Assembly (NCBI RefSeq): GCF_001696715.1
Contig: NZ_MBFM01000006.1
Span: 100,484 to 164,483 of the forward strand
Length of the DNA stretch: 64,000 bases
Origin: Thauera phenolivorans
GTDB taxonomy: Bacteria; Pseudomonadota; Gammaproteobacteria; Burkholderiales; Rhodocyclaceae
Direction of reading: 5' to 3'
Shown: positions 42,068 through 46,362 of the stretch, piece by piece
Layout of the letters: the number at the start of each line of letters is the position of its first letter
Numbering within the stretch: position 1 is the stretch's first letter
The notes under the pieces: generated by a model
Database searches by the model: none
Seen by the model: only the letters and a program-made list of their open reading frames with translations
What the model was told of the DNA's origin: nothing
Translations under genes and position numbers: made by a program

Positions 42068-42732
42068 TCGGTCGAGATCCGCAGGGCCGCGGCGCAGGCC
42101 CACGGCGCCAGCGCGAGCGCGCCAGCCAGGCCACCGCCGAGAAGCAACAGGTGGGCCGCGGCACCGGTACCGGACAGCTCCGCCTCCACCGCGCCGGCGC
42201 CGAAGATCAGCACCGGCACGAACAGCGGCAGCACCAGCAGCGCCAGCAGCATGCCGCCGCCGCGCAGCCCGAGCGTCAGCGCCGCGCCGACCGCGCCGAG
42301 CAGCGCGAGGGTCGGCGTGCCGAGCGTCAAACTTAGGACCAGTACCGGCAGGCCGCCTTGTTCCAGGTCAAGCAACAGCGCGAGCGCCGGCGCCACCGCC
42401 ACCACCGGCAGGCCGGTGCTGAGCCAGAAGGCGAGCACCTTCGCACCCACCCAAAGCACGGCCGACTCGCTCGACAGCAGCAACTGCTCGAGGGTGCCGT
42501 CGACATGGTCCTGGGCGAACAGCCGGTGCAGCGACAGCAGGCAGGCGAGCAGGGCCGCGACCCACAGCACGCCCGGCGCGATCGCCCGCAGCAGGTTGGG
42601 CTCGGCGCCGACGCCGAACGGGAACAGACACACGACGATGATGAAGAAGGCGAGCGTCACCAGCACGTCGGCGCGACCGCGCCAGGCGAGCAGAAGGTCG
42701 CGCCGCAGCACCGCGAGGAAGGTGCTCAGCAT
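42064..42732 (-). CDS. ccmB: Heme exporter permease CcmB
   Basis: 222 residues, six membrane helices, with the conserved FAQDHVDGTLEQLLLS segment and PFGVGAEPNLLRAIAPGVLWV. It is the membrane partner of CcmA in the CcmABCD complex that releases holo-CcmE. Its start overlaps the end of ccmA by 7 bases. Confidence 0.95.
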   Translation of the reverse strand: MLSTFLAVLRRDLLLAWRGRADVLVTLAFFIIVVCLFPFGVGAEPNLLRAIAPGVLWVAALLACLLSLHRLFAQDHVDGTLEQLLLSSESAVLWVGAKVLAFWLSTGLPVVAVAPALALLLDLEQGGLPVLVLSLTLGTPTLALLGAVGAALTLGLRGGGMLLALLVLPLFVPVLIFGAGAVEAELSGTGAAAHLLLLGGGLAGALALAPWACAAALRISTE

Positions 42733-43352
42733 GCGAAAGCACCGACGTCGAGCACCGCCGGCGGACGGGCGAAGGGGGCGTCCTGGTGGGTGGTCAGCAT
42801 CACCATGCCGCCCGCGGCGCAATGATCGGACAGGGTGGCTGCGAGATCGGCGACCGCATGGACATCGAGCGCGGTGAAGGGTTCGTCGAGCACCCACAGC
42901 CGGCGGCCGGCCGACAGGAACAGGCGGGCGAGGCCCACCCGCCGACGCTGCCCGGCCGACAGCACGCGCGCCGGCAGATCGAGCTGGTTGCCGAGCCCGA
43001 TGCGCACCAGCGCCTGCATGCAGGCCTCCTCGTCGACCGCATCGCCGACCGCAGAGGTGGCGAAGCGCAGGTTCTCGAGCGGGGTCAGCAGGTCGTTGAG
43101 CGCAGCCAGATGGCCGAGGTAGAGCAGTTCGCCGTGGAAGGCCTCGCGCACGCGCCGGATCGATTCGCCCTGCCAGCGCACCTCGCCCGCCTCCGGCATC
43201 GCCAGCCCCGTCACCAGTCGCAGCAGGCTGGTCTTGCCGACCCCGTTGGGCCCGGCGACGCGCAGCAGATCCCCTGCCTGGAGGCGGAAGGCGAGGTCGC
43301 GGAACAGCAGGCGATCGCCCTTCAGGCAGGCGAGATCTTGGACTTCGAGCAT
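42726..43352 (-). CDS. ccmA: Heme exporter ATPase CcmA
   Basis: 208 residues: Walker A GPNGVGKTSLLRL near residue 35, signature LSAGQRRRVGLARLF near 132, and Walker B LWVLDEPFTALD near 152. It hydrolyses ATP to free holo-CcmE from CcmC. The ATG at 43352 gives MLEVQDLACLKGDRLLFRDL, the family start. Only 29 bases separate it from the narL stop, without an obvious promoter or terminator. Confidence 0.95.
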   Translation of the reverse strand: MLEVQDLACLKGDRLLFRDLAFRLQAGDLLRVAGPNGVGKTSLLRLVTGLAMPEAGEVRWQGESIRRVREAFHGELLYLGHLAALNDLLTPLENLRFATSAVGDAVDEEACMQALVRIGLGNQLDLPARVLSAGQRRRVGLARLFLSAGRRLWVLDEPFTALDVHAVADLAATLSDHCAAGGMVMLTTHQDAPFARPPAVLDVGAFAC

Positions 43353-43381: not shown

Positions 43382-44020
43382 TCACGCCACTGAGCCGCGC
43401 AGGTGCTCCACCGCCCACACCGCCGCCTCGACCCGCGAGCGCAGCGCGAGCTTGCGCAGGATGTGCTTGACGTGCACCTTCACCGTCCCCTCGGCGATAT
43501 CCAGCTCGCGGCCGATCTGCTTGTTGGACAGCCCCTCGGTGATCTTCTGCAGGATGCGCCTTTGCTGTTCGGTGAGGACGGGCGGACCCGCCGTCTGCGG
43601 CTGCGACGGCCGGGCCGGGTGGCAGGGCCGCGGCGGGAGCACCACGCGGCCGGCGGCCACCGCCTGCAAGGCATCGAGCATCGCCTCGGGTTCCATGTCC
43701 TTGAGCAGGTAGCCGTCGATACCGGTCCGCAGCGCCGCTGCCACGTCCTCGTCGGCGTCCGACACGGTCACGATCACCACCCGCACGTCGAGGCGTTCGG
43801 CGCGCAGCGCGCGCAAGACTTCGAGCCCACCGAACTCGCGCATGTTGAGGTCGAGCAGGAGCAGATCGGGGCGCAGCTCGCGCGCCATCGCCAGCCCCTC
43901 GGCGCCGCCGGCGGCCTCGCCCACGAGGCGGAAGCCCGGCATCGTCTGCAGCAGCTGCACCATCCCCTTGCGAAACAGCGGGTGGTCATCGACGACGAGT
44001 ACGCGCTTCATCCCGTTCAT
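43382..44020 (-). CDS. narL: Nitrate/nitrite response regulator NarL
   Basis: 212 residues. An N-terminal receiver domain (VLVVDDHPLFRKGM, phospho-acceptor Asp in LLLLDLNM near 57, GIDGYLLKDM) and a C-terminal LuxR/NarL HTH (LTEQQRRILQKITEGLSNKQIGREL, AEGTVKVHVKHILRKL). The start overlaps the narX stop by ATGA. A site matching the NarL 7-2-7 consensus is present upstream of narX. Confidence 0.95.
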   Translation of the reverse strand: MNGMKRVLVVDDHPLFRKGMVQLLQTMPGFRLVGEAAGGAEGLAMARELRPDLLLLDLNMREFGGLEVLRALRAERLDVRVVIVTVSDADEDVAAALRTGIDGYLLKDMEPEAMLDALQAVAAGRVVLPPRPCHPARPSQPQTAGPPVLTEQQRRILQKITEGLSNKQIGRELDIAEGTVKVHVKHILRKLALRSRVEAAVWAVEHLRGSVA

Positions 44021-45489
44021 GGACGCGCCCCTCCCGCGTCGCATGGTGCGGGCGCCGCTGCGCTGGCCGCGCGGAAGCACACCCGGATGCACGTGCCGCG
44101 CGGCGCGGCGCTGACGATCTCGATTTCCCCGCCCATGCTGCGCGCGCGCTCGCGCATGATCGCGAGGCCATGGTGATTGGATGGGTCTGCCGGCGGCGCG
44201 CCGATGCCGCTGCCGTCGTCCTCCACGGTGAGCCTCACCTCACCGTCGTCCGCACCGCGCAGGTCGACCCGCGCGCGCCGTGCGCCGGCGTGCCGCACCA
44301 TGTTCGCCAGGGCCTCGCGCACGATCTGCAGCACATGTACCTCCTGGTTCGGGCACAGCCGGCAGGCGCCGAGATCGACCTCGAGCGCCACCGAGATGCC
44401 GCCCCGGCTGGCGTACTCGCGTGCCGCGTCCGCCATGAGGGTCGGGAGGTCGGCGGAGAGACGCAGGCGAAAGGACACCAGCAGCTCGCGCAGCTGGCGG
44501 TAGGCTTCGTTGATGCCCTCGCGCAGCTCGGCGAGGATGGGCTCCGCCTCGGCGCAGCGCGCCGGATCGCCCACCACCGATTGCAGCCGGCTGGCCTGGA
44601 TCTTCATGTAGGACAGCGCCTGGGCGAGCGAGTCGTGCAGCTCGCGCGCGATCGCCGAGCGCTCTTCCTGCAGCGCGAGCACGCGGTCGCTGCGCTGCAG
44701 CTCGGCGGTCTTCGCCGCGACCCGCGCCTCGAGCCCGCCGTAGGCCTGCGACAGTTCCTCCGCCATGTGATTGAAAACGACGCCGAGCCGGCCGAGCTCG
44801 TCGTGGCCGGTATGGCGGGCACGGGCGTCGAAGTCGCCGCGTGCCATGCGCTCGGCCGCGGCGCCGAGTTCGGCCAACGGCCGGTGCAGCGCCCGCTGCA
44901 GCATCAGGAGCACGACCAGGATCACCACCAGGGTCAGCACGATCGCGATGCCGAGCGTGGCCCGCAGACGCTCGATCCGGCGCTCGGTGCCTTCCTCGAT
45001 CACCCGCGCCAGTGCGTCGAGTTCGCCGACGAAGCCCTCGATCTCCGCCCGCACGGCCTCGAGCCGCTCGCCCGAGGGCGCGCCGCGCGCCGCGGCGACG
45101 GCCTCCAGCCGTGGCCGCAGGCCTTGCCGCCAGCCGGCCTCGACGTTGCGGTAGGCGGTGGCGAAGCGCCCCTGCGGCGAGCGCTCGATCACGCGCCGGA
45201 TCGACGCGTGCGCAAGCTGGCGCTCGAAATGCTCGATCGCCTGGGGAAGGGGCGGTGCGTCCTCGCCTGCGCCGAGCAGGTCGGCGGCCGCCAGGCTCCC
45301 CAGACGGTGGGCGAGCCGGCGCAGGCCGCCGGCGGCATTGAGCGCGCTCGCGTTGCCCTGCACCGTCTCCGCGACCAGCACCGAGGCGCTCATGCCGCCG
45401 AGGCTGATCAGCGCCAGCGCCAGCATGGCGAGCACGACCAGCAGCAGGATCGAGCGCCGGGCAAGGAAGTGGAGCGGGGACTGAAACAC
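44017..45489 (-). CDS. narX: Nitrate/nitrite sensor histidine kinase NarX
   Basis: 490 residues from a GTG start behind a strong GGAGGAG site. The first membrane helix (about 12-34) is followed by a P-box-like segment, ASALNAAGGLRRLAHRL, the nitrate-binding hallmark of NarX/NarQ. The second helix is near 155-175, then HAMP, the HisKA_3 box ARELHDSLAQALSYMK (His near 283) and a C-terminal ATPase domain (REALANMVRHAGA, VEDDGSGIG). NarX phosphorylates NarL in response to nitrate. Coupled to narL by ATGA. Confidence 0.94.
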   Translation of the reverse strand: MFQSPLHFLARRSILLLVVLAMLALALISLGGMSASVLVAETVQGNASALNAAGGLRRLAHRLGSLAAADLLGAGEDAPPLPQAIEHFERQLAHASIRRVIERSPQGRFATAYRNVEAGWRQGLRPRLEAVAAARGAPSGERLEAVRAEIEGFVGELDALARVIEEGTERRIERLRATLGIAIVLTLVVILVVLLMLQRALHRPLAELGAAAERMARGDFDARARHTGHDELGRLGVVFNHMAEELSQAYGGLEARVAAKTAELQRSDRVLALQEERSAIARELHDSLAQALSYMKIQASRLQSVVGDPARCAEAEPILAELREGINEAYRQLRELLVSFRLRLSADLPTLMADAAREYASRGGISVALEVDLGACRLCPNQEVHVLQIVREALANMVRHAGARRARVDLRGADDGEVRLTVEDDGSGIGAPPADPSNHHGLAIMRERARSMGGEIEIVSAAPRGTCIRVCFRAASAAAPAPCDAGGARP

Positions 45490-45552
45490 GCTGGGTTCTC
45501 CTCCGGTAGGGGGATCGACGGCGCCCGTTGCAAAAAAAACAGAGATGCAGGA

Positions 45553-45568
45553 TACCTCTTTGGAGGTA
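45553..45568. promoter_or_regulatory. NarL 7-2-7 binding site between narX and the Crp/Fnr gene
   Basis: TACCTCT TT GGAGGTA fits the NarL heptamer pair (TACYYMT, 2 bases, inverted heptamer) at all but one position and lies inside the larger perfect palindrome ATACCTC TTTG GAGGTAT. It is 64 bases upstream of narX and 102 bases upstream of the Crp/Fnr start, so it could control either. Confidence 0.75.
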
Positions 45569-45669
45569 TGCCTGCACCCATGCGATGTCGTTTGCGTTAC
45601 CGTGCGGGAACCAAAACGGCCGACCTCCAGGCGCCTGAGGCGAAAGCTTCGCAGCACAAGGACCACAGG

Positions 45670-46362
45670 ATGAAGACCGACTACCCGATCCCCCTCGTCG
45701 AAGCACTGCAGCAGATTCCTCCCTTCGATCTGCTCGACACCGTCACCCTGGGCGAGCTGACCGCCGGACGGCGCGTGATCCGCGCCGGGCGAGGCGAGGT
45801 CCTGGTCCATCGCGACAGCCCGGCCGAAGGCGTCCATGTGGTGCTCGACGGCGAGGTCAAGCGCTTCCTGCTGTCGTCCTCCGGCAGCGAGCGGATCGTC
45901 GCCCTCGCCAGCCGCGGTGAATCCTTCGGCGAGGAGGCGGCGCTGCTCGACCGCCCCCACCTCGTCTCCGCCCAGGCCACCCGTGCGAGCAACCTGATGC
46001 TGGTGCGCACCGCCCAGCTGCGTGCGGCGATGAGCCGCTGCGCCCGCTTCGCCGAGGCGGTGACGACCCGCCTCGCGCTGTCCAACTACGAACTGCTGTC
46101 GAGCCTGCAGCTCTACCTTCAGTGCAGCAGCACCCAGCGTGTCGCCCACTACCTGACCCAGCTCGCCCCCACCGACGCCGAGCACTGGGAGATCCGCCTC
46201 GAGAGCGACAAGCAGACCATCGCCGCCCAGCTCAACCTCACGCCCGAAACCCTGTCGCGGGTCCTTGCCCGCTTCACCCGCGCCGGCATGATCCGGCCGC
46301 AAGGGCGGCGCGTGCTGGTGCTGAGCAAGCTCTCGCTGCTGCGCGACTGCGCCGGCGACTGA
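45670..46362 (+). CDS. Crp/Fnr-family transcriptional regulator
   Basis: 230 residues: an N-terminal cNMP-like beta barrel (VHVVLDGEVKRFLLSSSGSERIVALASRGESFGEEAALL), dimer helix, and C-terminal HTH (ESDKQTIAAQLNLTPETLSRVLARF). The N-terminal cysteine cluster of Fnr is absent, so it should not hold a 4Fe-4S centre. A DNR/NNR-like nitric-oxide or other small-molecule sensor is plausible next to narXL, but is inferred. It is divergent from narX with the NarL site between, and ends 3 bases from the exonuclease stop. Confidence 0.9.
   Translation: MKTDYPIPLVEALQQIPPFDLLDTVTLGELTAGRRVIRAGRGEVLVHRDSPAEGVHVVLDGEVKRFLLSSSGSERIVALASRGESFGEEAALLDRPHLVSAQATRASNLMLVRTAQLRAAMSRCARFAEAVTTRLALSNYELLSSLQLYLQCSSTQRVAHYLTQLAPTDAEHWEIRLESDKQTIAAQLNLTPETLSRVLARFTRAGMIRPQGRRVLVLSKLSLLRDCAGD

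Follow-up and report, generated by a model that had tools for sequence, protein, structure and literature searches.

In Stutzerimonas, the Crp/Fnr gene dnrE, which belongs to the nar cluster, is reported to be under direct NarXL control (PMC13086519, citing Hartig 1999); according to that article, two putative NarL sites lie upstream of dnrE, an FNR box is lacking and the role of DnrE is unknown. According to an excerpt of PMC6152468, dnrE and the dnr gene of Pseudomonas aeruginosa both bear a NarL motif and are NarL-dependent, and no NarL site was located before narXL in Marinobacter; the same excerpt is our source for the NarL consensus and its 7-2-7 layout. The accessible part of PMC1805755 has E. 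coli NarL activating narXL, and records that no NarL sites were located before narX in Yersinia. NarL represses nap in P. aeruginosa (PMC8139620), so species may differ in whether NarL activates or represses. At the E. coli nrf promoter, NarL and NarP act from -74.5 (PMC5434802, likewise an extract). In the open-licence literature, covered as titles and the starts of abstracts, we found no description of a NarL site at the narX-Crp/Fnr locus of Thauera or Azoarcus.

We analysed a stretch of 64,000 nucleotides from Thauera phenolivorans, referred to below as the window. It contains a narX-like sensor kinase gene (44017..45489, minus strand), encoding a PilJ/NarX-type sensor followed by HAMP, HisKA_3 and HATPase domains, and, divergent from it, the gene of a Crp/Fnr family regulator with an E-SR (PETLSR) recognition helix (45670..46362, plus strand, with its ATG at 45670). 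From a GGAGGAG ribosome site we infer that narX starts at the GTG at 45489. The narL response regulator gene follows narX (43382..44020, minus strand), its product scoring above the NCBIfam NarL cut-off (267.5 bits with profile NF007935, against a cut-off of 250). A further 29 bp behind narL is ccmA, the first gene of a cytochrome c maturation cluster (42726..43352, minus strand), and ccm is probably co-transcribed with narXL.

The first-pass annotation had proposed that a near-consensus NarL 7-2-7 pair occupies 45553-45568, between the divergent narX and Crp/Fnr genes, and this was borne out. The letters there are TACCTCTTTGGAGGTA: two inverted heptamers, TACCTCT (45553-45559) and GGAGGTA (45562-45568), 2 bp apart with the spacer TT, which together fit TACYYMT-N2-AKRRGTA at 13 of 14 positions. 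The sole mismatch is the last base of the second heptamer, as the own-strand reading of that heptamer is TACCTCC. We regard the 16 letters as a putative NarL-type operator (TACCTCT-TT-GGAGGTA, 45553..45568) by virtue of its sequence, uniqueness and conservation. Both heptamers are contained in a perfect 7-bp inverted repeat, ATACCTC-N4-GAGGTAT (45552..45569; in full, ATACCTC-TTTG-GAGGTAT), which is extended by outer arms, TGCAGG (45546-45551) and CCTGCA (45571-45576), into a quasi-palindrome with one bulged base that folds as a hairpin in silico (45546..45576). None of these three features is assigned to a strand. At two other loci (L016 and L095) the dyad is prolonged perfectly by at least 8 extra bases per side, compared with the weaker, bulged extension in the window; the perfect extensions look as if they had arisen by quasi-palindrome correction.

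A first pattern allowing no mismatches had no match anywhere in the window. When the intergenic region was shuffled 20000 times with dinucleotides preserved, at least 11 of the 12 specified NarL positions were matched 13 times, and a 7-bp inverted repeat with an N4 spacer arose 289 times. Across the 3.69-Mb genome, TACCTC-N4-GAGGTA has one exact occurrence; allowing one mismatch adds no place and allowing two adds 22, and these 23 places compare with 42 for the reversed control pattern. The looser NarL consensus, with one mismatch allowed, was not enriched genome-wide (17 places versus 41 for the reversed control). Because the loose pattern is not in excess over its control, the consensus match on its own is modest evidence, conservation carries the case, and no regulon can be derived from the scan.

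Conservation was examined in 29 Thauera genomes, that of the window included. Of these, 27 have a Crp/Fnr orthologue (the window's genome among them, with 54-66% identity in the others); the two genomes in which none was found are estimated to be 77% complete. narX is the divergent neighbour of the Crp/Fnr gene in 26 of the 27. Exactly one TACCTC-N4-GAGGTA per genome is present in 25/29, in each case no more than ~170 bp from the crp match, and versions with one mismatch are seen at L011 (TACCACTTCGGAGGTA) and at L022 (TACCCCTTAAGAGGTA, which matches the NarL pattern at 12/12). In one metagenome-assembled genome (L024), narL was matched beside crp with no narX match between them, and the operator is kept. 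Beyond the genus, 121 genomes of the family were searched for NarX and the loci of the 30 best were retrieved. Of these, 27 are from other genera (L068-L094); 22 of these 27 have a site of at least 10/12 upstream of narX, and the remaining five (L085, L086, L087, L089 and L092) have no upstream site at that threshold.

We then assembled 40 regions in which a crp orthologue (>35% identity) is beside narX or narL: the 27 from the genus, L032, and 12 others with more upstream sequence. All 40 match at 10/12 positions or better, a level reached in 114 of 4000 shuffles, although the loci are mutually related and the counts are thus of non-independent events. Pairwise identity averages 0.90 over the 14 heptamer positions versus 0.31 in the flanks (up to 0.81 in single columns); palindrome conservation upstream of narX, named in the first-pass annotation as a check on its proposal, is therefore confirmed. 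The invariance of TACC and GGTA is partly by construction, since the expression used to locate the rows, satisfied by 40/40 loci, fixed those letters (positions 1-4). Among the 80 heptamers, substitutions were seen at position 5 in 5 and at position 6 in 1 (C to A), where the NarL consensus has N and M, respectively; position 7 is free, being T in just 30.

Recurrent elements also flank the site. Towards crp, 35/40 loci have a -10-like hexamer (TA, A/C/G, A/T, CT) at a set spacing: it begins 60-62 bp away from the middle of the site in 26 loci and 71-72 bp away in the other 9, and no copy is present at any other position downstream of that middle point. If the hexamer spans -12 to -7, the site centre would be at about -74.5 or about -84.5 from the deduced crp start in most relatives, one helical turn apart; this spacing agrees with activation of the kind seen at E. 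coli nrf. The five loci without the hexamer at this spacing are L006, L007, L008, L016 and the window. The first four have variant hexamers close by, as judged by eye, and the window has no recognisable crp -10 element at its relatives' spacing. Towards narX, 28/40 loci have another, single heptamer-like sequence 93-96 bp from the centre, and in 8/40 a full IHF consensus starts 35 bp from the centre. The window belongs to a compact class with neither the IHF-like element nor the second narX-proximal heptamer, and a Sigma-70 and terminator scan of 45400-45760 gave no calls. The proposal that narX is autoregulated and that NarL controls the Crp/Fnr gene gains support from the positions of these elements in the relatives (35/40 and 28/40), but in the window's own genome neither promoter-side element is recognisable.

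The genes behind narL also differ between genomes. Four relatives (L212, L213, L214 and L217) share the arrangement dnaQ, crp (reversed), narX, narL, nap, ccm, and in L213 napF, napA, napG and napH score above their family cut-offs; in L215, L216 and the window, ccmA follows narL directly with no nap between. No NarL site of at least 10/12 was found before napF in the four. By eye, an FNR-type box (TTGAT-N4-ATCAA or near) precedes napF in each, and is a candidate target of the E-SR Crp/Fnr protein. Among 14 genus genomes examined, narG was over its cut-off in 2 (with fragments in G024), and napA was present in 10, in every case with one copy no more than a few kb from crp (with fragments in G022). 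The window's genome has neither narG nor napA above the family cut-offs. Alongside narXL and the site it holds a cytochrome d1 gene, called nirS-type from its PF02239 match, and a nosZ gene that scores above the TIGR04244 cut-off and below that of TIGR04246. Its NarX is missing ~140 residues, in frame, between HAMP and HisKA_3; this central linker, with its Cys motif, is present in 6/6 aligned relatives. A NarX that has lost its Cys cluster is also described from Yersinia (PMC1805755). The window's genome is an interesting exception: it has kept both regulator and putative operator although neither Nar nor Nap is above cut-off there and the crp promoter element of the relatives is missing.

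Which protein reads the site can be addressed from the two DNA-reading helices and from the company that the site keeps. The alignment of the window's NarL to E. coli NarL runs through the DNA-reading helix, where TVKVHVKH is identical (EGTVKVHVKHILRKL here versus ESTVKVHVKHMLKKM in structure 1a04). Alternatively, the palindrome could be the operator of the divergent Crp/Fnr protein, regulating its own gene with NarL uninvolved: a perfect N4 dyad beside a Crp/Fnr gene is a usual layout for such autoregulation, and crp and site occur together in 40/40 loci. However, E193, S196 and R197 of the Crp/Fnr protein are invariant across 27 aligned sequences, and this E-SR helix in FNR reads TTGAT-N4-ATCAA (PMC9765128, from an extract). 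The Crp/Fnr protein, with its FNR-type helix, would be expected to read TTGAT, but the half sites here are TACCTC. Occurrence also argues against self-regulation. Among 80 crp relatives in the contig set (many of the loci coming from genomes already counted), a site of at least 10/12 accompanies all 37 that adjoin narX (36) or narL (1), but only 5 of the 43 away from narXL (the 43 including L155, which has no upstream sequence) reach 10/12, and three of these five have one shared sequence. L135, 54% identical and away from narXL, is without the site, and at L024 the site precedes narL with no narX match between. Conversely, seven narX loci in which a divergent neighbour other than the crp orthologue was identified keep the site, at 11/12 each; at L111-L114 the neighbour is a NarK-like MFS transporter, at L108 a cytochrome d1 protein of nirS type, and at L107 and L110 a Crp/Fnr protein of 27-28% identity, and L083, L090 and L091 are left out of this count. 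Because these loci without the crp orthologue keep the site and crp relatives away from narXL are mostly without it, the site accompanies narXL, not crp. We consider Crp/Fnr self-regulation very improbable and rejected it, since the site tracks narXL and the helix of the Crp/Fnr protein is FNR-type. The E. coli-like NarL helix, the FNR-type Crp/Fnr helix and the association with narXL together make NarL the most likely reader. As side observations, TACTCCTTTGGGGTTA, a 10/12 match to the NarL pattern, is common to L164, L166 and L168, lying 117-119 bp upstream of a crp relative that has no narX match near it; and a comparison of the Crp/Fnr protein with plasmids returned 103 records, every one below 60% identity.

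The dyad could instead act as RNA, as a hairpin in the narX leader serving as an attenuator or stability element, and the minus-strand fold does reach -27.2 kcal/mol (z -5.3) and is followed by a run of U. Long flank pairing is, however, confined to the window (bulged) and to L016 and L095 (perfect), being absent from most of the 40 loci, and no terminator-like site was called. As the flank pairing is not conserved, we deem this role very unlikely. The palindrome might also be a relic, an ancestral NarL operator that the window's genome has ceased to use, which would agree with the missing narG and napA, with the absence there of the crp -10, the IHF-like element and the second heptamer, and with a NarX that has shed its central linker. 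Yet the palindrome has stayed letter-perfect amid diverged sequence, no reading frame is broken in narX, narL or crp, and both DNA-reading helices are preserved. Continuing selection would be expected to leave this picture, and disuse is in our judgement unlikely. We favour the reading, with a probability of roughly 87% on these comparative grounds, that the palindrome is a NarL operator serving the divergent narXL and Crp/Fnr promoters under a nitrate/nitrite signal.

NarX senses nitrate or nitrite, leading to phosphorylation of NarL, as is established for the family. A phosphorylated NarL dimer would then bind both heptamers of the palindrome and act on two divergent promoters, those of narXL and of the Crp/Fnr gene; we infer both the binding at this site and the sign of its effect. 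The narXL arm would constitute autoregulation, and would reach any co-transcribed genes: possibly nap and ccm in the relatives, and ccm in the window's genome. In the lineage of the window, a nitrate-regulator module made up of NarL, one strong operator and the Crp/Fnr gene divergent from narX may have outlived both dissimilatory nitrate reductases, with the circuit rewired to nitrite or to incoming nitrate. We offer this as a tentative and rather doubtful suggestion, prompted by the loss of the Cys-containing linker from NarX and by the position of narXL directly before ccm. If true, the rewired circuit would set cytochrome c maturation and nitrite-to-N2 denitrification, not nitrate respiration.

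Thauera, Azoarcus and Aromatoleum are known denitrifiers of wastewater and of aromatic degradation. The comparative evidence marks the likeliest NarL binding place in these genera and the gene pair that nitrate should switch. Because the site is almost invariant and the genus can be cultured, the step from NarL to the Crp/Fnr gene can be tested through a few base changes, and retention of the operator where neither Nar nor Nap is above cut-off provides a natural test of a purpose for NarXL beyond nitrate respiration.

Several known systems share parts of this arrangement. The E. coli nap-ccm (aeg-46.5) operon is under NarL/NarP control, and its order, nap then ccm, is that of four relatives; unlike in E. 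coli, narXL is here directly before nap-ccm, and nap is missing from the window's genome. The NarL/NarP site of E. coli nrf is likewise at -74.5, the distance deduced for many relatives. E. coli nrf has an FNR site at -41.5 and IHF sites in addition; inspection of the crp promoter here by eye showed no FNR-type site. The P. aeruginosa DNR protein (structure 3dkw) is a distant homologue of the window's Crp/Fnr protein, and dnr is presumably not the divergent neighbour of narX in the narXL-narK1 region of that species. The suggested link from nitrate to a second regulator thus has reported counterparts in dnrE of Stutzerimonas and dnr of P. aeruginosa, and for that reason is not new in kind. The nearest precedent of the narX-Crp/Fnr site, most likely a genuine and strongly conserved NarL operator, is the DnrE-type circuit. 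As far as the Stutzerimonas (Pseudomonas) stutzeri narXL-dnrE region is described in the excerpts, the two differ in setting, dnrE being in a nar (narG) cluster with two NarL sites and the present gene in a narXL-(nap)-ccm locus with one 7-2-7 site. The likeness, which we draw from gene arrangement and site, is that in both a Crp/Fnr gene stands beside narXL with a NarL-type site before it.
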